This document shows, piece by piece, positions 4,374 to 51,117 of a stretch of 64,000 nucleotides of DNA. Origin of the DNA: Candidatus Omnitrophota bacterium (GTDB lineage: Bacteria > Hinthialibacterota > Hinthialibacteria > Hinthialibacterales > JAKPRU01); NCBI GenBank assembly GCA_029570205.1, contig JAKQSI010000128.1, positions 4,121-68,120 of the forward strand, written 5' to 3'. Numbering within the stretch: the first letter of the stretch is position 1; each line of letters starts with the position of its first letter. Both the position numbers and the translations under genes were made by a program. A model generated the notes under the pieces. The model did no database searches, was not told the DNA's origin, and saw only the letters and a list, made by a program, of their open reading frames with translations.

Positions 4374-4515
4374 GCACAGACACACGGACTGAAGGAAGAA
4401 TGTCTGGCGCAATCCCTTCGGTTTTCTGCATTGATAGAGGGGTGTTGTCATGATACATTCCAAGTAATGATTCAATCCGATGAATTCGACTCCTTTCGTG
4501 AACGGAGCGCTTTTG

Positions 4516-7053: not shown

Positions 7054-7150
7054 TCTCTTGACTGTACGGCAATCTTGACTCAGCGCGTTGCACATCGGTA
7101 GCCTTAAATCGGGCCTGGGAAGGCCCGATCTGATCCCTTCCAGGCGGATT

Positions 7151-8251: not shown

Positions 8252-8263
8252 CGGCCCGGAGAG

Positions 8264-8306
8264 TCCCTCACCCCGGCCCTCTCCCGGAGAGAGAGGGAAA
8301 AGAGGG
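8264..8306. repeat. Dispersed CCCTC/GGGAGA palindromic repeat
   Basis: CCCTCACCCCGGCCCTCTCC followed by GGAGAGAGAGGG, a copy of the family at 1241 and 37955, lying between two same-direction genes. Confidence 0.55.
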
Positions 8307-8313
8307 AAGCCAA

Positions 8314-10382: not shown

Positions 10383-10495
10383 GTCGAAGAAATTGCCTGA
10401 TTCGGCGTGACCCCTTGGTTTGGAGATTCGTCAGTAGTATCGGTCCGCTCGATTTGGGTGTAAAATGAGGCATTTGGACAGGAAGGGATCGAACA

Positions 10496-11947
10496 GTGAA
10501 AGGGATGGAAAACGTCATGAGAAGAGAGATATTCCGGTGTCCGTGGTGTTTGGTGATCCTTATCGGTGTCGGCGTGCTTCCTGTGGTGTTGTCAACCAGC
10601 TGCCGGACATCGGGGCGGGGCGGAATTGCGAGCGTACCGGCGGAGGCTCTTGAGAATTCGCCTGCTATGCAGGCGCAACTTACGCTGGAACGTGCTTTGG
10701 ATGCGTTTGCGACGCTCCGTGTCCACGGCGGTTGGCCGATGGCCTATTCGGAGGATCTGACCAAACGGTGGGGCGAGTATAAGGAGTGTGATGAATGGCA
10801 GATCACAGTCCAGCCGCCCGCGACTCCCTCCGTCGGCGAGGTCTATTTGCGGGCGCATCAGGCCACGGGCGAGCGGAGGTTCCTTCGTATTGCCAAAGAA
10901 GCCGCCGATATTCTGCGGGAAGGCCAGCTGGCGAACGGCGGGTGGTGGTATGAAATCCGGCTCGATGCCAAGGGACCCGCCGAATACTACTACCTGAAAG
11001 ATCGGGGCAATCATGAAAAGGCCGACCTGTTCTGCACGGCCACGCTGGATGATCGCACAACGCAGGGCGCTATTGACTTCCTGATGACAATGGCCAGGGA
11101 GACCACGGAACGGGCGTATCACGAGTCCGCCCGGCAGGGGTTGGATTTCCTTCTGGCTGCCCAGTATCCTCAGGGTGGCTGGCCGCAGACTTATCCGGCG
11201 GAGAGTACCGGTTATCAACAGTATCTCACCCTGAACGATCGCGCCGGGACCGATGCCATGCGAACGCTCCTCCGGGGATATCATCAATATGAAGACTCCC
11301 GCTACCTGACGGCTGTTCTGCGCGCCGCCAACTGGCTGATCAAGGCCCAACTGCCGGAACCTCATCCCGGATGGGCACAGCAATATACCCTGGAAGGGGA
11401 ACCGGCCGCCGCGCGGTGGTTCGAACCGCCTGCCTGCTGCTCATCTGTCACAGCCGATGTCATTCAAATCTTGATCGATGTCTACCTGGAAACCGGCGAT
11501 GACCGGTATCTGAAACCCATCCCGGCTGCGATTGCCTGGCTGGAGAAATCCCAGATCGAACCGGGCGTGTGGGCACGGTTCTACGAAATCGGCACAAATC
11601 GCCCCATCTATGTCAACAAAAATCGTGAGATTGTCTATGAGCAGGTTGATCTGCGTCCTAACTATGACTGGACGGTCAATTATGGTGTCAGCGCCATAGA
11701 GAATTACCGAAAACTGACCGAACTGGGAAGGAACGCCTATCTTCGCCAACGGGATTCCATGACCCCCGATCAGGAGAAGGCGCGTTTTGAATCGCTTGAA
11801 AACCAGTTGGGGGGGGTGATTGCGAGTCTTCGGGCGGACGGTTTCTGGGTCCGTGACGGACAGATCTCATGCGGCGAGTTTGTCCACAATGCCAACCTTC
11901 TGTGCGAGTACATCGAACTGTGGGTGAAGATAAATCGGAAAGCATGA
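10496..11947 (+). CDS. Secreted pectate lyase-like protein (PL10-type)
   Basis: 483 aa from GTG 10496; ATG 10505 and ATG 10517 are equally possible starts, the choice not being decided by the weak AGGAAGG/AAGGG sites. A hydrophobic leader is followed by a cysteine (VVLSTSC), so it may be a lipoprotein or Sec-exported, although the lipobox is poor. The body is an alpha/alpha toroid with HGGWPMAYS and QGGWPQTYP repeats and LNDRAGTDAMRTLL, as in the Pel family PL10 pectate lyases. Planctomycete-type genomes carry many such proteins. Calcium-dependent polygalacturonate cleavage is known for the family; activity on another uronan is possible. No sugar importer is adjacent. Confidence 0.75.
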   Translation: MKGMENVMRREIFRCPWCLVILIGVGVLPVVLSTSCRTSGRGGIASVPAEALENSPAMQAQLTLERALDAFATLRVHGGWPMAYSEDLTKRWGEYKECDEWQITVQPPATPSVGEVYLRAHQATGERRFLRIAKEAADILREGQLANGGWWYEIRLDAKGPAEYYYLKDRGNHEKADLFCTATLDDRTTQGAIDFLMTMARETTERAYHESARQGLDFLLAAQYPQGGWPQTYPAESTGYQQYLTLNDRAGTDAMRTLLRGYHQYEDSRYLTAVLRAANWLIKAQLPEPHPGWAQQYTLEGEPAAARWFEPPACCSSVTADVIQILIDVYLETGDDRYLKPIPAAIAWLEKSQIEPGVWARFYEIGTNRPIYVNKNREIVYEQVDLRPNYDWTVNYGVSAIENYRKLTELGRNAYLRQRDSMTPDQEKARFESLENQLGGVIASLRADGFWVRDGQISCGEFVHNANLLCEYIELWVKINRKA

Positions 11948-12005
11948 GGGAAGGCGGCGAGGGAAGTTTGGGTTGAGTTTGTCGGACTTGTCAGCTACTA
12001 CCTGA

Positions 12006-12028
12006 CCTCCCCCGACCTTCGGGGGAGG
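12006..12028. repeat. Strong intergenic hairpin after the lyase gene
   Basis: CCTCCCCCGA and TCGGGGGAGG form a ten-base-pair stem with a three-base loop. It stands between the lyase stop and the next start. There is no T-run, so it is either a dispersed repeat or a weak transcription end. Confidence 0.45.
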
Positions 12029-12063
12029 CAAACATTCCGCTCTTCTGCAGACGATCAAAAAAC

Positions 12064-12969
12064 ATGCACTTTCCCGTATCCGGTGTAGATACTCCGATCT
12101 GGCTGCCGCCATTGGTCGCCATGGTTATTTCCTATTTCACCTCTATGGCGGGTGTTTCGGGTGCGTTCCTGATACTACCCTTTCAAATGAGTGTGTTGGG
12201 ATTTATCAGTCCGGCGGTCAGCGGCACGAACCTCGTTTACAATGTGGTGGCTATTCCCAGTGGGATTTATCGTTATTTTCGCGAAGGGCGGCTCGTGTGG
12301 CCGTTGACCTGGATGGTGGTAGCCGGAACCGGGCCGGGCGTGATTGTGGGTGGCATTATCCGTCTTTCCTGTCTTCCGGATCCGAAGCCGTTCAAGGTGT
12401 TTGTCGGTTGCGTGTTGCTGTACATAGCGGTGCGCCTGCTGCCGGACGTTCTCAAAGCGCGGGCTACGCAACAGGCCGATGTTTCCAACAATCGGGCGAA
12501 TTGGCGAGTCGAAATCAGGGATTTCACCTGGCGGCAGATCGCGTTTGAATTTCAGGATCACACGTACCGGTGCGGTTCGGCGGGGATCTTCATGTTGTCC
12601 TTGATTGTCGGTGTAATCGGCGGGATTTACGGGATCGGTGGCGGGGCGATTATTGCGCCGTTTTTTGTGGCCATTTACGGATTACCGGTTCATGCGGTCG
12701 CCGGAGCGGCGCTCATGGGGACCTTTGTCACGTCGGTTTTGGGCGTCGTGTTTTACGAGGCAGCCGGGGTGTTTTATCAATCGACCGGGATGGCGGTGAC
12801 TCCGGACTGGTTGCTGGGAGGTCTGTTCGGCCTGGGCGGGGTAGTGGGGATGTATTTTGGAGCGAAGACCCAGCGATTTGTCCCGGCCCGGTGGTTGAAG
12901 GTTATGCTGACGGTGATCCTGTTTTATGTGGCAGTTCGGTATATTGGGGAGTACTTTGGAGTCTTCTGA
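12064..12969 (+). CDS. TauE/SafE-family membrane permease
   Basis: 301 aa, ATG 12064. Two related halves of about four membrane segments each, the second beginning FMLSLIVGVIGGIYGIGGGAIIAP, the glycine-rich motif repeated in TauE/SafE (DUF81) carriers; the first half has SMAGVSGAFLILPF. Members export or import sulfonates, sulfite or other organic anions across the inner membrane. The central cytoplasmic loop (about residues 125-165) is longer than usual. Neighbours do not reveal the substrate. Confidence 0.85.
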   Translation: MHFPVSGVDTPIWLPPLVAMVISYFTSMAGVSGAFLILPFQMSVLGFISPAVSGTNLVYNVVAIPSGIYRYFREGRLVWPLTWMVVAGTGPGVIVGGIIRLSCLPDPKPFKVFVGCVLLYIAVRLLPDVLKARATQQADVSNNRANWRVEIRDFTWRQIAFEFQDHTYRCGSAGIFMLSLIVGVIGGIYGIGGGAIIAPFFVAIYGLPVHAVAGAALMGTFVTSVLGVVFYEAAGVFYQSTGMAVTPDWLLGGLFGLGGVVGMYFGAKTQRFVPARWLKVMLTVILFYVAVRYIGEYFGVF

Positions 12970-13112
12970 CTTTGAAGCGGCGATAAGCCAGGGCGAAACG
13001 CAGGGCGGCGAGTCATTGATGATTGCGTGGAATCCGGGAATCAAACACCCGCCGGTTTCTTCTCGTTTTGCACAATGATCTTCGGGTCGAGATTTTTTGC
13101 CGGAGCGGCACT

Positions 13113-13286
13113 TTATGCCAACTCTTGGATGATGTGCTTTGCCGGGTTCTCGTCGATCTCATCATGCCGGGGAATCCGCTGCTTCTTGCCGGTTTTCGGA
13201 TTCCTGTAAAGGTCGTGCCGGGAACCGTGCCGCACTGGGACACATCCTGCAGAGGTGATTCGCCTCAGAAGATCCCTTCTCTTCAT
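13113..13286 (-). CDS. hicA: HicA-type mRNA interferase toxin (57 aa)
   Basis: A short minus-strand gene of 57 codons. It starts MKRRDLLRRITSAGC, continues VRHGSRHDLYRNPKTGKK and QRIPRHDEIDENPAKHII, which is the HicA double-stranded-RNA-binding-like fold with the catalytic histidine in the G-S-R-H turn. Its ATG (13284-13286) overlaps the hicB stop in an ATGA, so the pair is translationally coupled. HicA toxins cleave mRNA when the antitoxin is lost. Order is hicB then hicA, the reverse of the classical arrangement but known. No frame damage is visible, so this pair looks functional. Confidence 0.88.
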   Translation of the reverse strand: MKRRDLLRRITSAGCVPVRHGSRHDLYRNPKTGKKQRIPRHDEIDENPAKHIIQELA

Positions 13287-13480
13287 ACCTTCAAAGCCAG
13301 TTCTTTCACCCCGTGATTTTCAGGAACATCCTCCATGGTCATAAGGATATAGGCGTCCCTCATGTTCTCTTCCAGTTCCTCGAGCGTTTCTCCCTGCGTC
13401 ATGATTTCGGGATGTTCCAGCAGTTTGCCCACCCAGAACTTCTCACTTTTCCAATAGACCATTTTCAATTTCGTTTCCAT
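13283..13480 (-). CDS. hicB: HicB-type antitoxin (65 aa)
   Basis: 65 aa beginning METKLKMVYWKSEKFW with VGKLLEHPEIMTQGETLEEL, the partial RNase-H-like fold of HicB/UPF0150 antitoxins. It lacks the C-terminal ribbon-helix-helix or HTH domain found in long HicBs, as is common when hicB precedes hicA. It would bind and block HicA. Stop overlaps the hicA start by four bases. Confidence 0.85.
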   Translation of the reverse strand: METKLKMVYWKSEKFWVGKLLEHPEIMTQGETLEELEENMRDAYILMTMEDVPENHGVKELALKV

Positions 13481-13560
13481 CTTCTCATTTCCCAGAAAAA
13501 CCGAAATTATTCAACACCTGATACCATGAAATTGCCGGACGCGAGACCTGATGCGCTATC

Positions 13561-13781
13561 CTACCCTGGATTATTCTGCCCAATGATTTTCGCGTCGGGA
13601 TTGAGTGGAGGAAGCGGAAGCCCCTCTTGCCGGAGGATTCTATTATGTTCCTTCATGTTGCATACAGCCTCCAACAGACAATCCTTCACCGAATGCCCGA
13701 TCCCGATGAATTCCTCCGGATGGGGGGAATAGCCGGGTTCGTTGGTGGCTTCGATGATGAGGGAGTAGGGGAGTCAATCAT
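13561..13781 (-). pseudogene. Decayed HicB-like antitoxin, one-base frameshift near the start
   Basis: Reading the minus strand from about 13770 to the TAG at 13561-13563 gives YSLIIEATNEPGYSPHPEEF, then GIGHSVKDCLLEAVCNM and LRQEGLPLPPLNPDAK, a typical HicB-family antitoxin. In this frame a TGA lies just before, and there is no start. ATG at 13781 (MIDSP) is one frame off, and a single added C in its CCCC run would join the two. I read it as a frameshifted gene; a sequencing error would give the same picture. Confidence 0.6.
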
Positions 13782-13828
13782 CGTTGCTCTCTGCCGAAAA
13801 TTCTTTCTCTCACCACTTTGAGGGTCTG

Positions 13829-13864
13829 CTACTTAAGCAGCCGGACCAGTTCGCTGGATTTCAT
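13829..13864 (-). pseudogene. HicA toxin remnant (first 11 codons only)
   Basis: MKSSELVRLLK followed by TAG. This is the characteristic N-terminus of HicA proteins, which normally continue for another 50 residues. It lies directly before the broken hicB above, so the two together look like a dead hicAB pair. Eleven codons are little evidence, but the position supports it. Confidence 0.45.
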
Positions 13865-13964
13865 TTTGGGACTCCAATACGGAGGCCAAAACTTACGACA
13901 CTCCCACCTCTCTGAATGATTCCGATCTCCCAAAAATGGAGTCTCTAATCTGCGAGCATAATCA

Positions 13965-15761
13965 TCATAAAGTATCGAACCAAGTCCTGATCTTCTCCGC
14001 CATGAGTTTGCGTCGCATTTCGAGAAAATCCTCGTAGGGAGGAATAACACCATCCAGGAGGGACTCGGGCAGGCAGTGAATCCGTAAATTCGCGCGCATT
14101 TCGGCTTTGTCCGTGATTCCGCCATATTTCTTTTTCCCGCCGTTGCATTGTTCGGCTAGTTCGCTGAAATACTGATGCGGGGATTTGTCTCCGATGGCGA
14201 TATTGATCTCGCTTTGAGCGAGCACGAAGTTCGCGATCTGATTGTAACTTCCACGAGAAATGCCCTGTGTTTTCAGGTATTTCTTCGGGTATACATGGTG
14301 CACATCGCCGTGATTCATTAGTAAATCACACACGGTGATGTCCCGAGAGAGAAATCCCTTGTCGCCAAGCTTTACCTGCGCCGCTTGGTAAGATAAAAAA
14401 TATGGACTCCTCGACGAAGACGTGTTCATTATCTGCGGCAGCATCCCAGTCCAGAAGCTCTCAGGCAGTTCATTCTCAATCACCAACTCCGCGTAAGCTG
14501 CCAGACCGTGTGACTCAATTTGACGGATATCGAAGTCAAAGGCCGTCTCAGGACTCCCGATGTAGCGACCACGCAGGATGGACATGACATACCATCGGCG
14601 GACTAAACGCTCAATATCGGCCGGAGGGATTTTCTCAGCCTTCCCACGTAAATAAAGAATATAAGCGAAATTGACTGCATTGCAACCGCCAATCAAATTG
14701 CTTGTCACGAAGCCCGCCGAGCGCAAGATCATCGTGATCCGCTCGAAATGTGTCTGGTTGATGAAGGCAAGAATGCCCCTCTTAAGGCGGTGGAAGGATT
14801 CCTCGATGATAGCCTCTTCGTATTGCTTCGTCTCAAAGTTTCGGCCTGAAAGAAGTGCAACCAAGTCTTGAAGCTTGCCGCGTCCAAATTCTGACGTGAA
14901 CGCAACGCGCAGCATATCGGTATAAGTCGGGTCATATATATCGTCGTTTGTGTCTTTGAGCCAACGCATTGGCTGGAAGAACTCCGAGTTTACAAAGGCT
15001 TTGTCATTTTTCTCAATGTTCGGCAGAAACTCGGGCGCAACGGCAAGATGACAGAAGTAATCGATGGCCTTGCGCAGCATGTTCCCACTATAAGTTTCGT
15101 TCACCGCAATTTTCGACATGGCAAAGTCGGCCTGCGATAGTTCGGTTCCTGCCGAGTTCACACGGATAAATATCTCCGTAACTGTCTCGATGTCCAGATC
15201 ATTCGCGAGCTCGATTACTCCAACATGATTATTCGTAATTTTGTGGAGATTCTCGATCGTGTGAGATATGGCGTCTTCTGAGACGTCGGGATTCTTATGG
15301 CAGTAGTCTTTCACGAGTTGGAAGATACTGGACTCCGGCGCAAAGACCTCGGCGATATCGGGAATCCACGCTGTGTCCTTTCGGATGGCCGGATTGACGA
15401 CTTCAAATCGGTTTTCCTGTGGGTGAAATGCAATTCGGATGCGGACCGTTTCGTAGTCCTTCGTCAAGACTTCACGGCCCATCAACGCCGCCATAAGGGC
15501 TGTCACACGCTGCTGGCCGTCTATGAGAATGCGCTTGCCCGCAGCATGCGTGCCATCTTTCAGCCGCACCGTAGGATTGCGCCAAGCGATCAAATAGCCA
15601 ATCGGGTATCCCTGATAGAGCGAATCGAGAAGGTTACGAACCTTGACAGCTTCCCAGACAAATGGGCGTTGGATCTCGGGAATAGCGATTTCGCCGGATT
15701 TGACCCAAGTCAGAATTGTCTCAATGGGGTGTGGAGTAACCGAATAACGCTGTGTTGTCAT
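13965..15761 (-). CDS. Single-chain DUF262/HNH (GmrSD-like) restriction or defence protein
   Basis: 598 aa. The N-terminal DUF262 (GmrS, ParB-like nucleotide hydrolase) domain shows [10 protein letters not shown] at 27-36 and DGQQR at 81-85, the conserved nucleotide-site motifs. The C-terminus has [11 protein letters not shown] from about residue 486, the His-His-Pro pattern of the DUF1524-type HNH nuclease, and [20 protein letters not shown] with the following asparagine positions. Known relatives (GmrSD, BrxU, SspE) cut or nick modified or phage DNA in a nucleotide-dependent way. A solitary gene, so probably a type IV-like system. It lies between two toxin-antitoxin loci on the same strand. 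Target specificity is unknown. Confidence 0.85.
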
Positions 15762-15799
15762 AGCAAGTATCTCCCTCTCAGAGTCTGATTTGTCCTGCT

Positions 15800-16108
15800 C
15801 TATATATTTTTTAGGGACTGCGACAGGGAATTCTGCACACTCTCATCAAATGTCTGCTTTCCAAGTTTCCGGTGACGGCTTCGGCCTCTTCGATTGTGGC
15901 ATTCCCCTACTTCCACCACCCCCACAATCTCCTTGTGCGACCGGATCAGCTCGTTCACCACAGTAGGCACATCCACATTTTTCCGCTGGGCGATTTTCTC
16001 TACAAAAGCGCGATTGGCCTCGTCCAGATATACCGGAACATGGAAAGTCGCATCTTCCTGGAAGAATCGTCCGCGCTCGCCTTCGGAGAAATCGTATTCC
16101 TTCCTCAT
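15800..16108 (-). CDS. BrnA/CopG-type antitoxin partner of a BrnT-like toxin
   Basis: 102 aa from ATG 16108; the frame extends upstream only through the toxin gene. [16 protein letters not shown] then [20 protein letters not shown] is the standard start of antitoxins coded next to DUF497 (BrnT) toxins, and [17 protein letters not shown] matches the ribbon-helix-helix part. The last 30 residues ([16 protein letters not shown]) are unusually basic for the family and could be a read-through extension. The start lies four bases after the toxin stop. Confidence 0.72.
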
Positions 16109-16112
16109 GAGA

Positions 16113-16388
16113 TCATTCCTTATAGGATTCTTGTTCGCGCTTGGTTGCTTTTCGGCTTGATATAATGCGAATGATTGCCCTGTTCCGGTCAAGCCGTTCA
16201 AAAGTATGGTGGACAACAAGCAAATCTCCGGTTGATGAAATGCCGAGGGTCAACTACCTGTCCTCCTTCTCGCTGTGCTCCGTGTCATAGATTGAGATTG
16301 CACCTGGATCGCGGAAGACGCTGACAGATTGTTCGAAAGCCACACCGTGCTTCCTGATCCCGAAACAATCGTCACCGTTCTATCTCAT
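16113..16388 (-). pseudogene. BrnT-type (DUF497) toxin pseudogene with two in-frame stops
   Basis: 92 codons on the minus strand. Recognisable parts are IRKHGVAFEQSVSVFRDPGA, ISIYDTEHSEKEDR and, after a stop, LTLGISSTGDLLVVHHTF and RAIIRIISSRKATKREQE, ending TGA at 16113-16115. This is the BrnT RelE-like fold (KHGVxFEE, RAIxRIISARKAT). TAG codons are at 16380-16382 (third codon) and 16254-16256, the latter where the family has tryptophan (TGG to TAG). The antitoxin just downstream is intact, as expected for a dead toxin. Confidence 0.75.
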
Positions 16389-16455
16389 GGTTTTCCATCC
16401 ACAACGAGATTACCACATCCGCCGATTGCGAGCAATGAATTTTCGCGGGGAAATC

Positions 16456-16502
16456 CCCCTTCACCGCAACCCTCTCCCGGTGGGATATGGGGAAAAGGCG
16501 GC
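16456..16502. repeat. Dispersed CCCTC/CTCTCCC repeat
   Basis: Copy of the family at 1241 and 8264 (CCCCCTTCACCGCAACCCTC then CCCGGTGGGATATGGGG). Confidence 0.45.
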
Positions 16503-16545
16503 AGATGCGCTGCCGCACTCCAAGGGTGCAGGGTTGTATTACAAA

Positions 16546-16565
16546 GGGCGCACAGCCGTGCGCCC
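16546..16565. repeat. Perfect hairpin repeat GGGCGCAC/GTGCGCCC
   Basis: Eight-base-pair perfect stem with loop AGCC in the non-coding gap between the toxin pseudogene and the Asp23 gene. A similar GC-rich perfect palindrome is at 44020-44041. Confidence 0.5.
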
Positions 16566-16641
16566 CTATGGTTCTTGAATCCGCAATCCCTAACCTGCAA
16601 TTGGCAGACTGGGGCGTGACAATTTTAAGAAGTAATTCAAA

Positions 16642-17082
16642 TCAGGAGGGCTGTTCGCCCTCTGCCGGGACGGCCATTTCCGCTTCCGACGGCTCTTTTT
16701 TCTTGTTGGATGCCGGGATGTGCAGATTGACAAGGTTGATATTGACCGACTTGGGACGTGCCCCGGTCATTTTCTCGACCTCCTCCATCACGCGCACTTG
16801 CAGATTGGACGCCAATTGACGGATGTCCCTGCCGTATTCCACGATGATCGAAACGTCGATCACCAGTTTCCCCTCCTCGTCGCGGGTCACGCGGACCCCT
16901 TTCGGGGTATCGCCCTTGCGGACCAACGAAGCGATATCATCCACGATCCCGCCCGTTGTTCCAACCACCCCATCGACTTCCATGGCCTCTTTGAACGCGA
17001 TCAGGGCCACAACACTCTCTGCGACATCGATTTTTCCAATGGTTTCATCGGATTGAACAGTGACTTTTTTTTCAGCGCACAT
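16642..17082 (-). CDS. Asp23/Gls24-family envelope stress protein
   Basis: 146 aa from ATG 17082, which has AGGAGA six bases upstream on the minus strand. IGKIDVAESVVALIAFKEAM, GVVGTTGGIVDDI and VRVTRDEEGKLVIDVSI(IV)EYGRDI are the hallmarks of the DUF322/Asp23 fold. The C-terminal helix NLQVRVMEEVEKMTG and VNINLVNLHI complete the domain. In Gram-positive bacteria such proteins associate with the membrane in cell-wall stress; in other phyla they are common but unstudied. The gene is divergent from folC with about 200 bases between. Confidence 0.85.
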   Translation of the reverse strand: MCAEKKVTVQSDETIGKIDVAESVVALIAFKEAMEVDGVVGTTGGIVDDIASLVRKGDTPKGVRVTRDEEGKLVIDVSIIVEYGRDIRQLASNLQVRVMEEVEKMTGARPKSVNINLVNLHIPASNKKKEPSEAEMAVPAEGEQPS

Positions 17083-41968: not shown

Positions 41969-42493
41969 ATGGAACAGCCTGCCGCTAACCGAAATGACTC
42001 ACTGCGAATGGGAATGCTGCAAGTCAGAAGTCTCGCGTATGCCTTCGCCGAACAGTCCGAGAATCTCCGAATGCTCCGGCAAGAATACGGCGAATTGGAA
42101 AAGAAACAGGATGCCCTCGAGGCCGGTCAGGAACGATGGCGGGATATCCTCGAATTGGGAAAGCAGTCTCTTCAGCGGATCCGCAAGGAGACGGAGATAC
42201 GAATGCGCACGATTGTCCTCACCACCGGCGAAGAGGAACGTCTTTCGGAACTGCAAAAACATCTCGCCAGGCCGGACCTGACGGTTTCTGAATTGACAAA
42301 TCTTCATGCGCGGATATCCGAGGAGTTTCGGCTTCTATTTCCCACACGTCCCCATTCGTTGACTACCGATCGACAGGCGGCAGTCGATGTGCCCGCCGAT
42401 TTCCTGAACGAATATCGTTTTCGAGGCGAATCACCTCATTCATACATTCCATTAACAGACAAGGAGAACACACATGGCACGGTCCGTAGATAA
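41969..42493 (+). CDS. Phage-like coiled-coil protein (possible scaffold or pre-capsid factor)
   Basis: 174 aa from ATG 41969 (AAGGAAA upstream). Mostly helical with a heptad-rich part LRQEYGELEKKQDALEAG. No named family recognised. Position directly before a decoration protein and capsid suggests a scaffold or minor head protein; the stop overlaps the next start by 20 bases. Start of an uninterrupted plus-strand block to 50762. Confidence 0.6.
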   Translation: MEQPAANRNDSLRMGMLQVRSLAYAFAEQSENLRMLRQEYGELEKKQDALEAGQERWRDILELGKQSLQRIRKETEIRMRTIVLTTGEEERLSELQKHLARPDLTVSELTNLHARISEEFRLLFPTRPHSLTTDRQAAVDVPADFLNEYRFRGESPHSYIPLTDKENTHGTVRR

Positions 42494-42887
42494 CAACGGG
42501 GTCGGGGCCTTATACGCCACGTTTCAGATCGACACGACCGCGGGGGTCTATGACCTCACAATAAACAACTTGGGCGATGCGGTATCGCTGTCCGCGAGTA
42601 ATGAGGTCGACCACGGCTCGGACGGCGGAGTGCTGCTCGGCAGGCTGGAGCATGTCGGCGACGGTCTTGCGACGGTACAGATTGCAGGTGTCGCCCGGTT
42701 TGCCCTGAATACCGACAAGACCGCACCTGTTGTCGGTAACGGTGTCGTTGTGGACGGCGCGGGAAAAGTCTACAAGGCTCCCGCTATAGCCGAGGGTTCC
42801 GATGTCCCCGCCGGGGGAAATCCGGCACGCGGTATGGTCATCGCCGTGGATTCCGTTAACCACACCTGCGATGTCCTTCTGGGTTGA
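42474..42887 (+). CDS. Phage capsid decoration-like protein
   Basis: 137 aa, ATG 42474 with AAGGAG upstream. Beta-rich small protein (GVYDLTINNLGDAVSLSASN, then GRLEHVGDGLATVQIAGVA and GNGVVVDGAGKVYKAP), a pattern like DUF2190/head-decoration proteins that precede capsid genes. Assignment rests on position and composition. Confidence 0.6.
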   Translation: MARSVDNNGVGALYATFQIDTTAGVYDLTINNLGDAVSLSASNEVDHGSDGGVLLGRLEHVGDGLATVQIAGVARFALNTDKTAPVVGNGVVVDGAGKVYKAPAIAEGSDVPAGGNPARGMVIAVDSVNHTCDVLLG

Positions 42888-42930
42888 TCGCATTCCACTC
42901 TATTAGCCATTCAGTCAAGGAGAATTGATC

Positions 42931-43995
42931 ATGTTGATTCCTGAAGAACAACGAACGGGATTGCCCACGCAGTTGCAGCGCGCCGCCGGCATTCCACTGC
43001 ATCCCGGATTGTATAGCGAAGCCCGGCAGCGAGGCGTTCACCTCTCCGGCTACCTGGAGGAACTCGATCCCTCCGGCGCGGAATCGGCCCTGGATGCGTT
43101 CGAGCGACAGCTGGCCCTGGCCGGTATCAAGGTCAGCGGCCCCGAATCCAGCATCATCGACCGATTTTTCGCTACGCAGGAAAGTGCGGTCCTGTTTCCT
43201 GAATTTGTCGCCCGCTCCGTGCGGATCGGCAAAGACGATTTCACCAAATTAGGCAAGATTGTTGCGAATCGCACACGGGTGGATGACAACACTTACAAGG
43301 CGATCTACATGGACGACTCGGTTCTTGCCGACAGCGACAAACGTCTTGCGACAGTAGCCGAAGGCGCGGCCCTTCCGAAAATCGAGCTGGAAACAGCGGA
43401 ACATTCCATCCAACTCTACAAGTACGGCCGTTACCTGGAGGCCACCTACGAGGCCATCCGCCGGAAGCGAGCCAATGTGATTGCGTATTTCCTGCGCGCG
43501 GTCGGGGTACAGATTCAGCGTGACAAGTTCGCCGATGCCGTCGGAGTTCTCATTAACGGTGACGGGAACAACAACGCGGCTTCCGTTGTGGAAACAGCAA
43601 CGAGCGGCACGGTCACATACACAGACTTGGTGAAGTTCAAACTGTCCCTCGACCCATACGAAATGAATGTCCTGGTAATCAGCCAGGAAACGGCAAAAAC
43701 CATTTTGGGCCTGAATGAATTCAAAGAGCCTCTGGTTGCCGAGAAATTCCAGAAGTCCGGTGAAATGATCAGGTTATTCGGCGCCGAGATCCTGGTAGAC
43801 AATTCAGTAACGGACGATTTGATCGTGGGGCTGGATCGTCGATTCGCGCTGGAAGAGGTGTACGAAACCGAGGTTATGACCGAGAGCGAGCGGCTGATCC
43901 GTCAGCAGATCGAAGGGACGGCTATTTCGGAAGTCGCCGGTTTCGCGAAAGTGATCCGATCCGCCTGCAAAGTTCTCGACACGGTTCATGCATAA
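42931..43995 (+). CDS. Phage major capsid protein (HK97-type fold likely)
   Basis: 354 aa from ATG 42931 (AAGGAG at 42917-42922). After an N-terminal extension of about 70 residues, SIIDRFFATQESAVLFPEFV starts the core I associate with capsid proteins of Gram-positive siphophages, followed by YKAIYMDDSV, VAEGAALPKIELETAEHSI and LYKYGRYLEATYEAIRRKR. The C-terminal part LVDNSVTDDLIVGLDRRFAL and a fusion of E/R-rich helices completes it. Encapsulins share the fold but lack the neighbouring decoration and tail genes. Confidence 0.82.
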   Translation: MLIPEEQRTGLPTQLQRAAGIPLHPGLYSEARQRGVHLSGYLEELDPSGAESALDAFERQLALAGIKVSGPESSIIDRFFATQESAVLFPEFVARSVRIGKDDFTKLGKIVANRTRVDDNTYKAIYMDDSVLADSDKRLATVAEGAALPKIELETAEHSIQLYKYGRYLEATYEAIRRKRANVIAYFLRAVGVQIQRDKFADAVGVLINGDGNNNAASVVETATSGTVTYTDLVKFKLSLDPYEMNVLVISQETAKTILGLNEFKEPLVAEKFQKSGEMIRLFGAEILVDNSVTDDLIVGLDRRFALEEVYETEVMTESERLIRQQIEGTAISEVAGFAKVIRSACKVLDTVHA

Positions 43996-44019
43996 TCTTT
44001 CTTTGTAGAGGCGGCGCAA

Positions 44020-44041
44020 GGGGCGACGCATCCGTCGCCCC
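44020..44041. repeat. Perfect hairpin GGGGCGACG/CGTCGCCCC
   Basis: Nine-base-pair stem with loop CATC between two phage-like genes; the type of GC-rich palindrome also seen at 16546. It is a genome-wide-looking repeat inside the phage block. Confidence 0.7.
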
Positions 44042-44080
44042 TGCGATTGCCTGAGATACCTGGAAACAGAGGAACCTACC

Positions 44081-44470
44081 ATGGCGTTTACCAATGAATC
44101 CCTTGTCCGCCAACGGGGCCTGATGCGGCTGTTTGATGAGGTTCCATTCGATTTCGTTAGCCGATGTATCGACACGGCGCATCTGCGAGTGACGGAGGCG
44201 ATTGTCGAAATCTCCGAAAACGAACCGCCCTTGCCTGTCGTTGAAGCGGAAACGGATCTCGCCATGGCAGAGATCATCAGGCGGCTGGCGGTCTCCAGAG
44301 AGATCAATCAACAATCGTATAGAACCCCTGAAATCAGTTTGGAAAGTAGAGATCGGGCCGAGCGATATCTCGCCTTGGCCTCATTGGAAGAATTACAAGC
44401 CTGGAGCCGCCTGCAGCCTTACTTAAAACACCCCGGTCCCCTGCCCTGGGCGATGCAACGCCCGCGCTGA
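44081..44470 (+). CDS. Phage-block hypothetical protein (possible head-tail connector)
   Basis: 129 aa, largely helical, MAFTNESLVRQRGLMRLFDE at the N-terminus. No domain recognised. Small helical protein directly after the capsid gene is where connector/adaptor proteins usually sit; that is inference. Confidence 0.5.
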   Translation: MAFTNESLVRQRGLMRLFDEVPFDFVSRCIDTAHLRVTEAIVEISENEPPLPVVEAETDLAMAEIIRRLAVSREINQQSYRTPEISLESRDRAERYLALASLEELQAWSRLQPYLKHPGPLPWAMQRPR

Positions 44471-44508
44471 GTTAGACATTCCATTCAGCGCAATAAGAAA
44501 GTAGAAGA

Positions 44509-45189
44509 ATGATTCGGATTGGAACCTTTCTGTTTCCCGAAGAATCCTCCTGGTGGCGATCGACTACTCTGGAGGCGCTGTCGAAAGAGCGACGTGAAAT
44601 CGTGATTCGGGCCGTCCTGTCCCATCCCGACGGTCCTCTCGCCTTGCGAAAGCAGCTGGAAACATTGGAGCAGGAAGTCGAGCGTCTGGATCGCGGAGAA
44701 GCGGCGCTGAGTCTTCACTCCGGGCGGTTCTTTGAGGGGCGGCGACGTGAGTTGTCCGTCGTACTGTCCCCACGGGAAGATGCCGCTCGAATCTCCCTCA
44801 AGATGCTGACCCTTGACCGCTTTGAGCGCAGTGATGTGCTGCACCGCCTGAACGCAGACATATCTCCGCCGGGTAATTCCATATACCTCCTGAATCGCGG
44901 CAACTTCCCGACACCGCCGGCGTTTCAAGTTCGGCCGGAGGAAGCGATGACGCGGTTCCGCATCGAGATCGGCACGGAATCATTGAACTACAGCGGATCG
45001 TTGAACTCCGGAGACATACTGAACATTGACTGCGAACACGGGATCGCTCTGTTGAACAACGACGAGAATACCACAAATCTGGTAGATGAATTTCCCCGGC
45101 TTCCAAGCGGATGGAACACGGTTACTTTACGGAGTGAGACCGCTGCGGACGGTACATGGGAGATTCAATACCGCGATCTGTGGGTCTGA
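44509..45189 (+). CDS. Distal tail (Dit-like) protein
   Basis: 226 aa. N-terminal helical part LEQEVERLDRGEAALSLHSG followed by a beta sandwich ending SLNSGDILNIDCEHGIALLN and FPRLPSGWNTVTL, the strand pattern of siphophage distal-tail proteins (GDxLxIDCENGTVxLNG). Located before the fibre genes as expected. Confidence 0.55.
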   Translation: MIRIGTFLFPEESSWWRSTTLEALSKERREIVIRAVLSHPDGPLALRKQLETLEQEVERLDRGEAALSLHSGRFFEGRRRELSVVLSPREDAARISLKMLTLDRFERSDVLHRLNADISPPGNSIYLLNRGNFPTPPAFQVRPEEAMTRFRIEIGTESLNYSGSLNSGDILNIDCEHGIALLNNDENTTNLVDEFPRLPSGWNTVTLRSETAADGTWEIQYRDLWV

Positions 45190-45202
45190 ACGGAGGTCTG
45201 CA

Positions 45203-46144
45203 ATGTACCACTCTTATCGAGCCGCGGAAGTGACCGATAGCCATCTCAACGATACGCAGGCGGATCTCGCGGCGATCAACGCGCTCGCGCAAATGCCTCT
45301 CGGGTTGGAGGACGTCTACATCCGCAGCATGTATCTCTGCTCGGATCAGCCGTGCGAGACCGATTGGTCACAATTTACGCCCAGGGCATTGGAGCAAATC
45401 CGCCGTCTGGTTGTCGGGCAATCGGTAATCGGCGGGCACGACCGGCGCACGCTTCCTCTGGCACGGTTCTTTAAGGCATCTGTTGTGGAAAGGTTCGGCC
45501 CGAGCGGAGAGCGAGCGTTATGGGTGCAAGCCTGGTTTTATTGGTTGCGGAAGACCAGCGGGGCAACCGATCTCCTACTGAACATCGACGGCGGGATATA
45601 TCGGGAAGTTTCCGTTGCCTGGCGATACCGGCATTGGCGGTGTTCAATTTGTGGAAAAGAAGACGGTGTGTGCGGTCACCGTCCGGGTGACCAGGTAGAG
45701 AATGCCCGTTGTCTTCGTCTGATCGACAGCATTGTAGACGTTCTCGAAGGTTCATTTGTCTACAAGGGGGCGGATAAGGGCGCTGTTGTGGCCGGAGCGC
45801 GGAGCATTCCTGCCGACATGAATGAGGAGGCGGTTCTCTGTATTTGGGAACACGGCCATCCGCTCTTCGATCTCCTCTGTCGGGAGGGATTGCTCTCTGA
45901 TGTGAGAGAGGCTTTCCCGGAGGAATTGCAAGCCCTCGAGGGGTCTGCAACTGACATGTGGGTAGACGATCTCGGACGGGCATTCTCCAGCGGCAGGGAA
46001 CTACACCGCCTTCTCGCACCCGGTGGAGCCTTGGTTACCTGCCGGACAGATTCGATCACTTCTCGCATGACAGACCTGCCGAATTTCCTCGTAACTGAAG
46101 AGGAGGCGGAATCCCCGGCATTGATAGTCCGACGATTGGAGTAA
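45203..46144 (+). CDS. Phage prohead-protease-like protein with unusual C-terminal extension
   Basis: 313 aa from ATG 45203 (CGGAGG at 45190-45195; open frame from 45086 overlaps the Dit-like gene). VYIRSMYLCSDQPCETDW, IGGHDRRTLPLARFFKASVV and GGIYREVSVAWRYRHWRCSI with the zinc knuckle CSICGKEDGVCGHRPGDQ are shared with phage proteins usually placed in the prohead-protease region. Putative catalytic His is in GGHDRRTLP. The last 100 residues (MNEEAVLCIWEHG; LHRLLAPGGALVTCR) resemble a methyltransferase C-terminal strand pair. It lies after tail genes, an unusual order. Confidence 0.55.
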   Translation: MYHSYRAAEVTDSHLNDTQADLAAINALAQMPLGLEDVYIRSMYLCSDQPCETDWSQFTPRALEQIRRLVVGQSVIGGHDRRTLPLARFFKASVVERFGPSGERALWVQAWFYWLRKTSGATDLLLNIDGGIYREVSVAWRYRHWRCSICGKEDGVCGHRPGDQVENARCLRLIDSIVDVLEGSFVYKGADKGAVVAGARSIPADMNEEAVLCIWEHGHPLFDLLCREGLLSDVREAFPEELQALEGSATDMWVDDLGRAFSSGRELHRLLAPGGALVTCRTDSITSRMTDLPNFLVTEEEAESPALIVRRLE

Positions 46145-46152
46145 AGAATCCC

Positions 46153-46944
46153 ATGGCAAACCTGGGAAAATACGATCCGACGCGAGAGTCGCACAGTTCA
46201 TCTCTGTTCATTTACGGAGAGGTTCCGGTATCTTCGGCGAAACTGAACCGCTGGAACGCCAATATCGATGCCTCCCTGGAAGCCGTGAACCTAGCGGTCT
46301 CCCGTCTAGTGAACTCGGATCAGAACGCTGTGTTGGATACGGGCTGTGGAGGATCGCTACGGGTCGCCGCTCAACCGACTCCGAATATGACCGTGCGCAT
46401 CCTGACCGGGGTGGGAATCATTCATCCTTATGTTGTTGCCAAAACCACCGTGGAGACTCTTCCCGGCGAGGGAATGATTGAGCCTCCGGTTTCGGCTTCC
46501 AGGATCGACGTTGTCTACGCTCGCCGGGATGGAGAATCGGGAATTGTAACCGGAGCGGAGGACAGTTCCCCGGTCGCGCCCGGTATTCCCACAGGCGCCA
46601 TGGCCCTGGCAGAAATCTATCTTCGTCCTGGATGCACAGCAATTAAAGAATCGGATGACGGCCTGAACGGTTACCTTGTTGATCTTCGCAAACTCGTAAC
46701 CGTCGGGCCGTCCCACCGTCATTCCGTGGATCAAACGCCGCCGGAGGTTCCTGACGGGGAGACGGTTCATTTCAGCACGGCCCTGCCATTCCGGTTGGGG
46801 ACGCTGGAAGTGTTCCTGAATGGCGTGATGCAGGCAGCCGCGGTGGATTATACAGAAGAGGAGACCTGTCGGGGCTACATCTTTCACAGTCCGCCGCCGG
46901 CAGTGTCGATCATTCAACACCGATATCTCATCAAACAGGAGTAA
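46153..46944 (+). CDS. Phage tail/baseplate-like protein
   Basis: 263 aa. The C-terminal part VHFSTALPFRLGTLEVFLNG followed by VDYTEEETCRG matches receptor-binding or fibre-base domains (LEVYLNG...DYTE). N-terminal part NRWNANIDASLEAVNLAVSR is helical. Stop lies six bases before the next small gene. Confidence 0.55.
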   Translation: MANLGKYDPTRESHSSSLFIYGEVPVSSAKLNRWNANIDASLEAVNLAVSRLVNSDQNAVLDTGCGGSLRVAAQPTPNMTVRILTGVGIIHPYVVAKTTVETLPGEGMIEPPVSASRIDVVYARRDGESGIVTGAEDSSPVAPGIPTGAMALAEIYLRPGCTAIKESDDGLNGYLVDLRKLVTVGPSHRHSVDQTPPEVPDGETVHFSTALPFRLGTLEVFLNGVMQAAAVDYTEEETCRGYIFHSPPPAVSIIQHRYLIKQE

Positions 46945-46950
46945 AGAATT

Positions 46951-47085
46951 ATGAATCCGTTTCTACGTCGATTTCTCACGCTTCTCATCCCGCTCATTCT
47001 CGATTGTATCGAAGAAGCCCTGAACCAGAACGTCACTGAGGAAGGAAGACACGAGAGCAATGAACAATCTGAATCCGACAAGTAA
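46951..47085 (+). CDS. Small membrane-like protein, 44 aa, in phage block
   Basis: 44 codons from ATG 46951, AGGAG nine bases upstream. A short hydrophobic stretch FLTLLIPLILDCI precedes an acidic tail. Overlaps the fibre gene by 26 bases in a different frame. Could be a small holin or leader; below usual gene-finder size. Confidence 0.45.
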   Translation: MNPFLRRFLTLLIPLILDCIEEALNQNVTEEGRHESNEQSESDK

Positions 47086-49378
47086 TCCTTTCATGGGTAA
47101 AATGGGCTGGGGCCTGGCAATTCTATTGCCCCTTTGCGCTCTCTGTATGGCCAATCCGCAAACCCTGGCGCGGACACTTATTCACCCCAGTCAGATTGAG
47201 GACGTTTATCTTCGAAATACGGGAGATGTTTCCACCGGCGACATTGTGGCGGCAACCTCCGAGGTAATGGCTGCGACATTTGTTGTGAATGGGAGTGACA
47301 CGGCGGCCCGGATTTTTCTCGCCGATGAACTCCAGGAAAAACTGTGGATTACGACTAACGGTTATGATATCCGTATTGATCCGAATGTAGGAGTGTCTCC
47401 CGAAGCGCCGGCCACGGCGTTCATTCAATTCGGAACGACGGTCCGCTTTGACGATACTGTAGGCGACAAAATCAGACTCTGGTCACATTCGTATAAAATC
47501 GGTGTGTCTCCGTTTGATTTGGACGTTACCTCGGATCGGAATATCAAATTTCACTCCGATACGGTAGAGGACCTGTTCCAAATCCTGGGCGATGAGGGCG
47601 ATATTGTAGTAAAAAACAATGTGATCTCGGGGGCAGATGTATATGCGTCCACGGCCTTTCGATTTATCGAACAGCAGCCCGGCGACAAAATCTATCTGTA
47701 CTATCCAAACTACAAATTCTCCATCTCACCGAACGATCTGGATGTGTTTTCGGATCGCTATATCAAATTCCATTCCGATACGAACGAGGAGGCCATGGTG
47801 CTGGACGCCGACGTCGGCGACCTGGCCGTGGAAGGCCATATCAAAGCGCCGATCGCTGTGTTTGGAGCAACGGACGATCCCCCTGGGGGTTACTCGCTGG
47901 TGGCGGATAACGCCTGGATCGGTCATCTGAGCAGCCCCGGTATTTCAGATCGCGGATGGACCGTATCCGGGGACAATGTGTTTACAAGTGCCGGAGGAAA
48001 TGTCGGAATCGCTACCTCCGAAACGAATGAGAAACTCACATTGAACGGGGCGCTGAGTGTGAGTAACCGGTCGGTCGATCCGGCTACAAGTTCTCATTAT
48101 GGAAAAATCTATTCAGCGCCCAGGCGAGTGCGGCAAATTGCGCCCTATACCTCGCTGTTGCTGCACGCGGAGGGCACCGACGGATCGTCTTCGTTTGCAG
48201 ATAGTGCTGTCTCTGCCCATGTCATGACAGCATACAACGGCGCTCAGATCGATACGGAAGCATTCAGGTTCGGGACAAGCAGCGGGAAATTCGACGGTAC
48301 GAACGACTATCTTGACACACCGGATCACGAGGACTGGAATGTGGGAAGCAACGACTTCACTGTCGATTTCTGGTTCAAGCGTGACGGCGGAGCCGGCGCG
48401 TATCGATACTTCTGCGGTCAATACATTGACACGCCTGCGAGTGGCGGTATTTACCTGTTGATGCGAAACACCAATCTGATCGAGGGAGGGCTTTATTATG
48501 GAAGCTCTTATACCACCTTACAGCACACTTCGGCGATTACGGATGCAAATTGGCACCATGTCGCTTTCTCTCGAAGCGGGAATTATTTGCGTTTGTTTGT
48601 AGACGGTATCAATTCCGCTACTGCGACTGTTACGGGAGTGACGGTGAACAACTCTTCTTCCCGCTTCGCCGTGGCGCGGATGGGCCAATACAACCAGGAC
48701 TACTGGAAAGGCTGGATTGACGAATTCCGTTTCAGCAAGGGCATTGCGCGCTGGACGGAATCGTTCACGCCACCGACCGCTCCTTACCCGGACGGGTATT
48801 TCGATACGAACGCGCTTTATTTTCTCGATGAAAATGGTCGAAAGTATCTGCTGTCGGCGTGGGAAGAAAACGAATCGGGAATGCACTACCAGGGAGGATA
48901 TCTCGGCCTCGGTACGCAGGCTCCGCAACGTGTTCTGGAAATCGGGGCCGGGCAGGGCAACGCGCGTGCCGATGGCTGGGATGTCTGGAGCGCGGCGAAA
49001 TTCAAGAAAGATATTGAGCCTTTGACTCCGGAGGATCGCTCGTCAATGCTCGAAGAATTGCAGAACGCCCGTCTCTTCTATTTCCGTTACAAGGGAGAGC
49101 CGGATACACATCGGAAACGGCTTGGCTTCCTGGTGGAGCAAGCCCCTCGATCCATCGTGTCGCCGGACGGTTTGTCCATCAGCCTGAGTGACGGCCTCGG
49201 CCTGGCTTTCGCGGCGCAGATGGCCATTCTGGATCGGATCGACGCGCTGGAACGGAGTCTTGTGAAAGCCGGGATTCCGCTTGCGACCCCTGTTGCCACA
49301 CCCACTCCGGTATTCACACCGATGCCGACCGCGACGGCTGCTCCCCTGAGTGCGTCACAGGAATCGGAGGGGAATTGA
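47060..49378 (+). CDS. Tail-fibre-like protein with LamG domain and S74 intramolecular chaperone
   Basis: 772 aa from ATG 47060; ATG 47093 would start MGKMGWGLAILLPLCALC. Either start gives a hydrophobic N-terminus like a signal peptide, odd for a fibre. Repeated beta-helix-like units follow (DVTSDRNIKFHSD; DVFSDRYIKFHSD), then a LamG domain at about 357-570 (SSGKFDGTNDYLDTPDHEDW, FTVDFWFKRDGGA) and a peptidase S74 domain near 640-735 (AAKFKKDIEPLTPED, RLGFLVEQAPRSIV, AFAAQMAILDRIDALE). S74 domains trimerise fibres and then cut themselves off. Proline/threonine tail at the end. Confidence 0.75.
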   Translation: MNNLNPTSNPFMGKMGWGLAILLPLCALCMANPQTLARTLIHPSQIEDVYLRNTGDVSTGDIVAATSEVMAATFVVNGSDTAARIFLADELQEKLWITTNGYDIRIDPNVGVSPEAPATAFIQFGTTVRFDDTVGDKIRLWSHSYKIGVSPFDLDVTSDRNIKFHSDTVEDLFQILGDEGDIVVKNNVISGADVYASTAFRFIEQQPGDKIYLYYPNYKFSISPNDLDVFSDRYIKFHSDTNEEAMVLDADVGDLAVEGHIKAPIAVFGATDDPPGGYSLVADNAWIGHLSSPGISDRGWTVSGDNVFTSAGGNVGIATSETNEKLTLNGALSVSNRSVDPATSSHYGKIYSAPRRVRQIAPYTSLLLHAEGTDGSSSFADSAVSAHVMTAYNGAQIDTEAFRFGTSSGKFDGTNDYLDTPDHEDWNVGSNDFTVDFWFKRDGGAGAYRYFCGQYIDTPASGGIYLLMRNTNLIEGGLYYGSSYTTLQHTSAITDANWHHVAFSRSGNYLRLFVDGINSATATVTGVTVNNSSSRFAVARMGQYNQDYWKGWIDEFRFSKGIARWTESFTPPTAPYPDGYFDTNALYFLDENGRKYLLSAWEENESGMHYQGGYLGLGTQAPQRVLEIGAGQGNARADGWDVWSAAKFKKDIEPLTPEDRSSMLEELQNARLFYFRYKGEPDTHRKRLGFLVEQAPRSIVSPDGLSISLSDGLGLAFAAQMAILDRIDALERSLVKAGIPLATPVATPTPVFTPMPTATAAPLSASQESEGN

Positions 49379-49624
49379 ATGAACCGAAGGCCGAGTTACA
49401 GCCCCGAATATGTGGAATTGCGCACGGCCATTGAGCATGTAACCGCGCGAGTGGAGGGCATCCAAATGCTCTTGCGGGATATCCAGCGTGACTTTGCGCG
49501 GACCGAGTCCATGGTGTTGAAAAACCGAAGCGATATTGCGGCGATCAAAATCACCGCCTCGCTTCTTGGAGCCGCTGCCGGGGCATTTATCGGCCTGTTC
49601 GGCAAATCCTGGTGGCCGTTCTGA
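49379..49624 (+). CDS. Holin/XhlA-like small membrane protein
   Basis: 81 aa, ATG touches the preceding TGA. Coiled-coil helix (VEGIQMLLRDIQRDFARTES) followed by one C-terminal membrane span SLLGAAAGAFIGLFG and WWPF. XhlA/haemolysin-type proteins of phage lysis cassettes have this layout. Confidence 0.6.
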   Translation: MNRRPSYSPEYVELRTAIEHVTARVEGIQMLLRDIQRDFARTESMVLKNRSDIAAIKITASLLGAAAGAFIGLFGKSWWPF

Positions 49625-49649
49625 CTGATGGACTCGTAGGAAAGATCTC

Positions 49650-49740
49650 GTGCGCCTGTCATTCCGAGTGCGACTCCGGCAGAGTCGGTGATTGGGTGAA
49701 GAAAGCCCCGCTTCCCACCCTTCTTAGCCAGGCAGAGACG
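49650..49740. repeat. TTGGGTGAAGAAAG dispersed repeat, shared with 19920-20000
   Basis: GACTCCGGCAGAGTCGGTGA, TTGGGTGAAGAAAG and CCACCCTTCTTAGCCAGGC; the 19918-20010 region has the same order (GTCGGCAGGGCCGGTAA, TTGGGTGAAGAAAG, CTTTCTTTGCCGGGC). Confidence 0.6.
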
Positions 49741-49783
49741 CCTGGCCTACTGGTGGGGACAGGCGTCCCTGCCTGTCGATGGG
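49726..49783. repeat. Repeat unit related to the 24911 tandem array
   Basis: GCCAGGCAGAGACGCCTGGCC, CTACTGGTGGGGACAGGCGT and GCCTGTCGATGGG inside the phage block. Confidence 0.65.
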
Positions 49784-49808
49784 CGAAGAATCTTAAGGAG
49801 ACAAAATA

Positions 49809-49958
49809 ATGGCGGATTCTCAAGACAGTCCCACATCCCTTGCCGAAAACGAAGGAACCACCGGATTGGCGCCTGAATCCGATGCAGCGATACCCGCCAT
49901 CGAGCTGACTGTCCGGTTTCCCGAGAACGGCGTTCATCCTGTTTATTTCCTTGCATGA
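49809..49958 (+). CDS. Small hypothetical protein, 49 aa, in phage block
   Basis: 49 codons from ATG 49809 with AAGGAG eight bases upstream. MADSQDSPTSLAENEGTTGL is disordered; the end is VRFPENGVHPVYF. No family recognised. Confidence 0.5.
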   Translation: MADSQDSPTSLAENEGTTGLAPESDAAIPAIELTVRFPENGVHPVYFLA

Positions 49959-49974
49959 TTGGAGAGCATGAAAC

Positions 49975-50286
49975 ATGACCACGACCATTTTGTTGACCCG
50001 AAACGATCATGGAATCCAGCTGCGATTCACCTGCCAGGACCGTGAAGGCAATCCGATCGATCTGACGGACCGCGAAGTCCATTTCCTTCTGGAATCCGAA
50101 GGAGAGATTCTGAATACGGATCGGAGCCTCTGTGAGAATATCGATCTACCGGCGGGCAAAGCCGCTTACACGGTGGATGCGGCCGATACGGCTCAGACGG
50201 GAATCCTGAAAGGACGCCTGCGCTTGCAGAATGAAAGCTTTCAGGTGGAAAACCTTGAACCCATTGCCGTCCAGGTGAAAGAATGA
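49975..50286 (+). CDS. BppU-like baseplate/fibre adaptor protein
   Basis: 103 aa. MTTTILLTRNDHGIQLRFTC then IDLTDREVHFLLESEG and GKAAYTVDAADTAQTGILKG, the pattern of phage BppU N-terminal (DUF2479-type) domains. Its stop overlaps the next ATG by four bases. Confidence 0.6.
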   Translation: MTTTILLTRNDHGIQLRFTCQDREGNPIDLTDREVHFLLESEGEILNTDRSLCENIDLPAGKAAYTVDAADTAQTGILKGRLRLQNESFQVENLEPIAVQVKE

Positions 50287-50762
50287 AGCGCAACGAGATC
50301 CGCCTGACAGATCATTTCTTCCTCTCCGAGTTTGAGGATAAGGCCACCGGATTGGTGTGTATTCATCCTCTGCTTCCATTGCGTTTGGAACAGATGCGCA
50401 TCCGGCTGGGTGTTCCGTTGAGGATTACATCTTCCTGTCGAACTTGGCCGGAACATCGTCGGATTTACCGGCAGCAATACGGAGAAAGGTGGGCGGAGGA
50501 GATCAGCCTTGGAAGCCGTCATCTCTTGTGCGGCCCGGATGAAGAGGATTTTCAGAAATATCCCGTGCTGATGGAACGACTTGGAGAAATGACGTATCTG
50601 CCTGCAAAATCAAATCTTACCTGTTGTGCTGCTGACGTTCGCCGACCGGAGGAGGTGTCGTCAAGAACTTTTGAATTGGTTGCCCGTTCTCTCTTTGATT
50701 TTGTGAAGCCCTATCCATGGGGGCTTCATGTCGATCTGCGTCACACCTCCCTGGATAAGTAG
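50283..50762 (+). CDS. Peptidase M15A-type endolysin / D-Ala-D-Ala carboxypeptidase
   Basis: 159 aa. Zinc site: H80 in SRHLL, D118 in AADVR, and H149 in GLHVDLR, matching M15 spacing; N-terminal NEIRLTDHFFLSEF as in family members from phages. Not preceded by a signal peptide, so it would need a holin to reach the wall, and one lies at 49379. Last gene of the phage-like block. Confidence 0.75.
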   Translation: MKRNEIRLTDHFFLSEFEDKATGLVCIHPLLPLRLEQMRIRLGVPLRITSSCRTWPEHRRIYRQQYGERWAEEISLGSRHLLCGPDEEDFQKYPVLMERLGEMTYLPAKSNLTCCAADVRRPEEVSSRTFELVARSLFDFVKPYPWGLHVDLRHTSLDK

Positions 50763-50950: not shown

Positions 50951-50979
50951 TTGACAGGCGGTGCGAGAACTCGTATGGT
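50951..50979 (+). promoter_or_regulatory. sigma-70 promoter of nrdJ
   Basis: TTGACA at 50951-50956, a 17-base spacer, TATGGT at 50974-50979. Transcription would start near 50986. Confidence 0.75.
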
Positions 50980-51015
50980 GAAGTCCACCTGAAAATGCAC
51001 TGACGGAGATCCTTG

Positions 51016-51045
51016 AACACACTCGGTATGAGGGTGTGTTTTTTT
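51016..51045 (+). terminator. Terminator-like hairpin in the nrdJ leader
   Basis: AACACAC at 51016-51022 and GTGTGTT at 51034-51040, followed by TTTTT. It lies between the promoter and the coding start, so it can act as an attenuator. Confidence 0.6.
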
Positions 51046-51117
51046 CACTTACTGCTTGTGGCGGCAGGCCCACATGGCGGGCCGACAAATACATGTTGAG
51101 GGATCGGAGAGAAAATC

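Follow-up and report, generated by a model that had tools for sequence, protein, structure and literature searches.

The window (the whole 64,000-nucleotide stretch of Candidatus Omnitrophota DNA that was analysed) contains a block of at least 11 phage-derived genes at 41969-50762. All are intact and on the forward strand. Shine-Dalgarno-like sites are present, and there are overlaps of 20 nt between A and B and of 4 nt between J and K. This bears out the preliminary description, which had reported co-directional structural genes with ribosome sites and overlaps, and without a stop or frameshift. The block lies among host genes, with FtsK and a glycosyltransferase to one side and NrdJ to the other, and its GC content is about that of the flanks. 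Two starts were corrected; the capsid gene probably begins at ATG 42931 (not TTG 42925) and gene F probably at 45203. Two extra small open reading frames were assigned to the block, both of which are kept in genome G001. The features are as follows.

A, 41969-42493, forward strand: 174-aa coiled coil, putative scaffold by position alone
B, 42474-42887, forward strand: capsid decoration-like protein (phrog_4588, E=6e-6)
C, 42931-43995, forward strand: HK97-fold major capsid protein (phrog_3922, E=1.2e-80; PF25209, E=1.9e-11; TIGR01554 above cut-off)
D, 44081-44470, forward strand: 129 aa, candidate head-tail adaptor by position
E, 44509-45189, forward strand: protein with a Dit-like C-terminal domain (PF22768, 2.8e-12; phrog_33, 8.7e-14)
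F, 45203-46144, forward strand: prohead maturation protease, with H79, S137 and E182 invariant in the alignment
G, 46153-46944, forward strand: tail or fibre adaptor-like protein (mean pLDDT of the model 78)
Small open reading frame, 46951-47085, forward strand: 44 aa, N-terminal half hydrophobic
H, 47060-49378, forward strand: fibre with a Sec signal-like N-terminus, a LamG-like lectin domain and an S74 chaperone
I, 49379-49624, forward strand: 81 aa, coiled coil and C-terminal hydrophobic segment, holin-like by appearance
Small open reading frame, 49809-49958, forward strand: 49 aa
J, 49975-50286, forward strand: 103 aa, BppU-like, kept in host families f1 and f2
K, 50283-50762, forward strand: possible M15-like protein or endolysin (phrog_894, E=6e-4)

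The gap between K and NrdJ (window positions 50951-51048) has a promoter-like site and a terminator-like hairpin with a T run, although the scan gave about as many sites in shuffled sequence.

The capsid, decoration, Dit-like and S74 fibre genes named in the preliminary description have profile support. In the fibre H, the lectin domain matches PF13385 (3e-19), while the S74 match (PF13884, 2.5e-4) scores 21.7 bits against a 22-bit cut-off. No solved structure was matched by the sequence of the capsid C. Gene B adjoins the capsid gene in the loci of the class, of Zixibacteria and of most Clostridia. Gene A has profile homologues in the f1 and f2 genomes in which the region is assembled and a dN/dS of 0.27; it matched no known family in profile searches and was not recognised in f4. 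Gene D is without a family match and is kept in all clusters of the class.

The gene described earlier as protease-like is upheld by its structural model, which matches a prohead serine protease in BFVD (E=1.4e-13) and T4 gp21 (Z=8.3, rmsd 3.2 over 126 residues), with herpesvirus assembly proteases ranking next. A Foldseek search of the model against the PDB gave no significant match, but the second aligner and BFVD did. On the modelled fold and the invariant H-S-E set, F is a prohead protease. The model of G matches the phi812 baseplate (Z=13), and its C-terminal domain resembles the short-tail adaptor and fibre proteins of LME-1, HRP29 and P-SCSP1u (Z 7-8).

Genes had also been described as holin-like (I), BppU-like (J) and M15 (K). 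These genes are present, but the labels are without a significant family match. Gene I has a dN/dS of 0.03-0.04. Gene K was found only in the genus of the source genome, where it is present in G001, and has no Pfam match. The 49-aa open reading frame is a possible relative of the 69-aa gene that precedes J in f2, as suggested by its position and similar C-terminus.

In agreement with the earlier account, the block was found to have no gene for a portal, terminase, tape measure, integrase or repressor. Its immediate flanks are host genes. Nor was a small terminase or a regulator recognised for the gene set. The statement that the system is without packaging genes is wrong for the genome as a whole. 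An intact portal gene of 433 aa is located at G000:C86:3456-4757 of the source genome; it was found with a Zixibacteria portal as the query, while a PF04860 portal profile search of the same genome gave no match. An intact, solitary TerL gene was found by PF03237 on contig C16. It contains Walker A (GRGAGKS), Walker B (VILDEACYM) and nuclease (GADLALS...HDD) motifs, and its profile matches the solved ATPase and nuclease domains 4zni and 5m1f and T4 gp17, as well as phrog_2 and phrog_3753. By sequence, this TerL resembles the terminases of headful packagers. The cluster, portal and TerL are on three contigs, each among host genes. We take the neighbours of the portal and TerL, named by reading their sequences, to include a membrane pyrophosphatase adjacent and FtsH two genes off. 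A complete prophage would have packaging, integration and regulation in one locus, and here the portal and TerL are elsewhere. Domestication judged from one locus is misleading because packaging genes can stand alone far off.

A second TerL, on the short contig C74 of the source bin (L160), was rejected. It shares 99.8% identity with the TerL of G002, to which the contig itself is nearly identical, and 91% with the copy on C16; therefore, C74 has probably entered the bin as contamination from a sister species. The PF03237 matches in G012 and G009 and one of those in G005 seem to be other terminases, and that of G012 is inside an ordinary prophage.

The source genome was compared with 13 further genomes from its class, in host families that include f1, f2, f4 and f5. 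NCBI names relatives Candidatus Omnitrophota; the group forms a candidate phylum by itself, probably Hinthialibacterota. Of the 13 relatives, 12 carry the capsid cluster, each of them once and with a single capsid gene. The synteny comparison proposed earlier found the gene order A-B-C-D-E-F-G kept across them, and its recurrence in up to 12 other genomes is far above chance. Downstream of A-G, f1 and f2 have a fibre whose N-terminus is signal-like, and f4 has a similar protein. The chromosomal flanks of the cluster differ between genera. The portal is present in 12 of 14 class genomes (11 of 13 relatives) and has an open frame in all; G009 has neither capsid nor portal. The portal and TerL are both apart from the capsid cluster in f1 and f2, and the portal is directly upstream of it in f4 and f5. 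Two f4 genomes have a second type of TerL (phrog_38) some 4 kb downstream of the capsid cluster, and the third f4 genome has it on a different contig. The presence of two types means that the packaging motor has been replaced at least once. Ten of the 13 relatives have a TerL of either type; this count includes G006, in which the match read (on C119) is cut by the contig end. The searches gave no TerL in G004 (95% complete, with portal and capsid present) or in G011 (84%).

Phylogenies of B, C, E, F and the portal recover the host families in much the same way as that of FtsK (r=0.85-0.92 between distances), and those of D and G have a lower correlation with FtsK (r=0.77-0.78). The dN/dS of the set ranges from 0.03 to 0.27, and the capsid and portal have a value of 0.05 compared to 0.06 for FtsK. 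There is no close phage; the best capsid identity is 43% in IMG/VR and 41% in phage records. As judged from these sequences, the set is near-universal in the class, vertically inherited, co-diversifying with the host and under purifying selection. The earlier suggestion of a domesticated system is supported by the dN/dS values, which indicate purifying selection, and by the host-congruent trees.

A related set, with homologous capsid, decoration protein, protease and portal, is found in Zixibacteria. Among 78 good genomes, the capsid is present in 73, the portal in 70 and TerL in 71; in all 132 genomes the counts are 111, 112 and 115 (their own TerL), nearly always in single copy. As in the present class, the set has the capsid, decoration protein, protease and portal, is near-universal and is often split. 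In single-contig genomes, the gap between portal and capsid is 6-11 kb in four and 93 kb, 412 kb and 1.3 Mb in three. It differs in its distant TerL (17-19% identity to the TerL here) and in its downstream genes, several of which have hydrophobic signal-like N-termini. The Zixibacteria capsid-portal-TerL set is apparently undescribed. In Zixibacteria loci such as L070, L075, L094 and L099, several downstream proteins begin with a signal-like segment, and that of one in L094 has a lipoprotein-like cysteine. In the single-contig genome G136 the capsid gene is in two pieces 600 kb apart, which is either a real rearrangement or an assembly fault.

Capsids of the same family, roughly 37-43% identical, occur in Ruminococcaceae/Oscillospiraceae. 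There, L116 has a compact element of about 11 kb (5758-16827) with the order TerS-TerL-portal-F-B-C (protease-decoration-capsid), followed by hub and baseplate J genes; no sheath, tube or tape measure was seen in it. About 60 similar Clostridia loci were found (L061-L131). Elements of the L116 type may represent a gene transfer agent (GTA) family wider than Faecalibacterium.

The block is likely to be the head and fibre locus of a multi-locus, vertically inherited, GTA-like system. Its genes suggest descent from an ancient domesticated phage, and the bacteria probably build predicted virus-like particles that carry their own DNA. On induction, the capsid would assemble on the portal and be matured by F, and TerL would fill the head with pieces of the host chromosome in headful fashion. 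A short tail of E, G and H would be joined to the head, and a lysis step would free the small particles. Since the element is scattered over the chromosome, a head filled in this way would not be expected to hold it whole, and what the particles spread would be host DNA rather than their own genes.

Few GTAs are proven, and most of these are alphaproteobacterial. A GTA was one of the options named in the preliminary description, and it is favoured here in the form of a GTA-like system. The definition used is that of PMC9662315. Its first feature, tailed-phage ancestry, is found in the capsid, portal, TerL, protease and Dit-domain protein. The second, full endogenisation, often over multiple loci, is seen in the three contigs and also in the split on single-contig Zixibacteria genomes. 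The third, mostly vertical inheritance with congruent trees of host and GTA, is seen in the comparison with FtsK. The term GTA-like is used because these three features are present, whereas the packing of mostly random host DNA, the inability to package the whole of the own genome (its loci lie on different contigs) and delivery to other cells are predicted. The hosts are all uncultured. In the literature searched, no paper was found linking GTAs to Omnitrophota or Zixibacteria.

The closest known system would be FpGTA, to which the present one is likened by family, gene set and order. The host of FpGTA belongs to Ruminococcaceae/Oscillospiraceae, in which the related capsids and the L116 element occur. 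FpGTA particles have been purified from Faecalibacterium prausnitzii and packaging of host DNA shown; they are 40 nm in size with about 9 kb of DNA, and the genes are in two separate operons (PMC12946183). Both systems have capsid, portal and TerL, keep some of their structural genes at a locus apart, and contain no replication or integration genes. However, in FpGTA a single operon holds TerL, portal and capsid and another holds the fibre and lysis genes, whereas here the capsid and fibre are together, the portal and TerL are each solitary and the particles are predicted only. RcGTA and the alphaproteobacterial type I GTAs (Rhodogtaviriformidae) likewise consist of domesticated tailed-phage genes at multiple loci that co-diversify with the host (PMC9662315). 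The likeness seen is one of organisation and inheritance, and the present cluster has no siphovirus tail with a tape measure.

Hydrophobic Sec-like N-termini occur on the homologues of H in f1 and f2, on their positional equivalents in f4 and on gene X in f2, several followed by an A-x-A-Q type site. To our knowledge, phage fibres normally do not have Sec-like signals. An ordinary cytoplasmic particle would not need the signals of H and gene X, and they count against the GTA-like reading, as do the undetected TerL of G004 and G011, the missing capsid and portal of G009, the replaced motor and the lack of a recognised small terminase or regulator. It is conceivable, but doubtful, that a GTA is near-universal among the species of two candidate phyla (the present one and Zixibacteria), with conservation of a depth and uniformity that we know from no other GTA, and that the fibre is exported here by Sec apart from the head. 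The particle would then meet its fibre outside the cytoplasm, or the fibre would be a surface receptor of the recipient.

A PBSX-like or tailocin-like weapon that kills relatives, with any packaged DNA incidental, is an unlikely alternative to the GTA-like system. The adaptor proteins and the fibre with its lectin domain and S74 chaperone would suit such a weapon, and the same doubt has been voiced for FpGTA (PMC12946183). However, the cluster is without sheath, tube and tape measure, and selection maintains the capsid, portal and prohead protease, which would be superfluous for a tailocin. It is also quite improbable that the genes form a protein-filled, encapsulin-like HK97 compartment or some other structure that has given up DNA packing. 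Encapsulins share the HK97-fold shell, and the Sec signals on H and gene X suggest that part of the set serves a purpose other than that of a phage. An encapsulin would have the shell alone; here the capsid belongs to phage capsid families, and portal, prohead protease and TerL are all under selection in the same genomes. Both a tailocin-like system and a capsid compartment had been offered earlier, and they are disfavoured because the portal is conserved, the TerL motifs are intact and the prohead protease is present.

It is very improbable that the genes are remnants of a decaying prophage that survive by chance, or a single prophage broken up by misassembly (the case named earlier as refuting). 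The genes are scattered and TerL was undetected in G004 and G011, but there are no stops or frameshifts, dN/dS is far below 1, gene order is shared by many genera with host-congruent trees, the solitary portal and TerL recur in independent assemblies of several genera, and the related Zixibacteria sets are split by 93 kb-1.3 Mb on single contigs.

If the GTA-like reading is true, particle-borne exchange of host DNA would be an ancestral trait of whole candidate phyla. Reads of virus-fraction metagenomes would be expected to cover the host genomes evenly if the system is a GTA.

Elsewhere in the window, 13965-15761 encodes a protein with a GmrSD-type restriction endonuclease N-terminal domain. 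The gene at 4480-7053 encodes a PilB-type type II/IV secretion ATPase, which, speculatively, could also serve DNA uptake in recipients.
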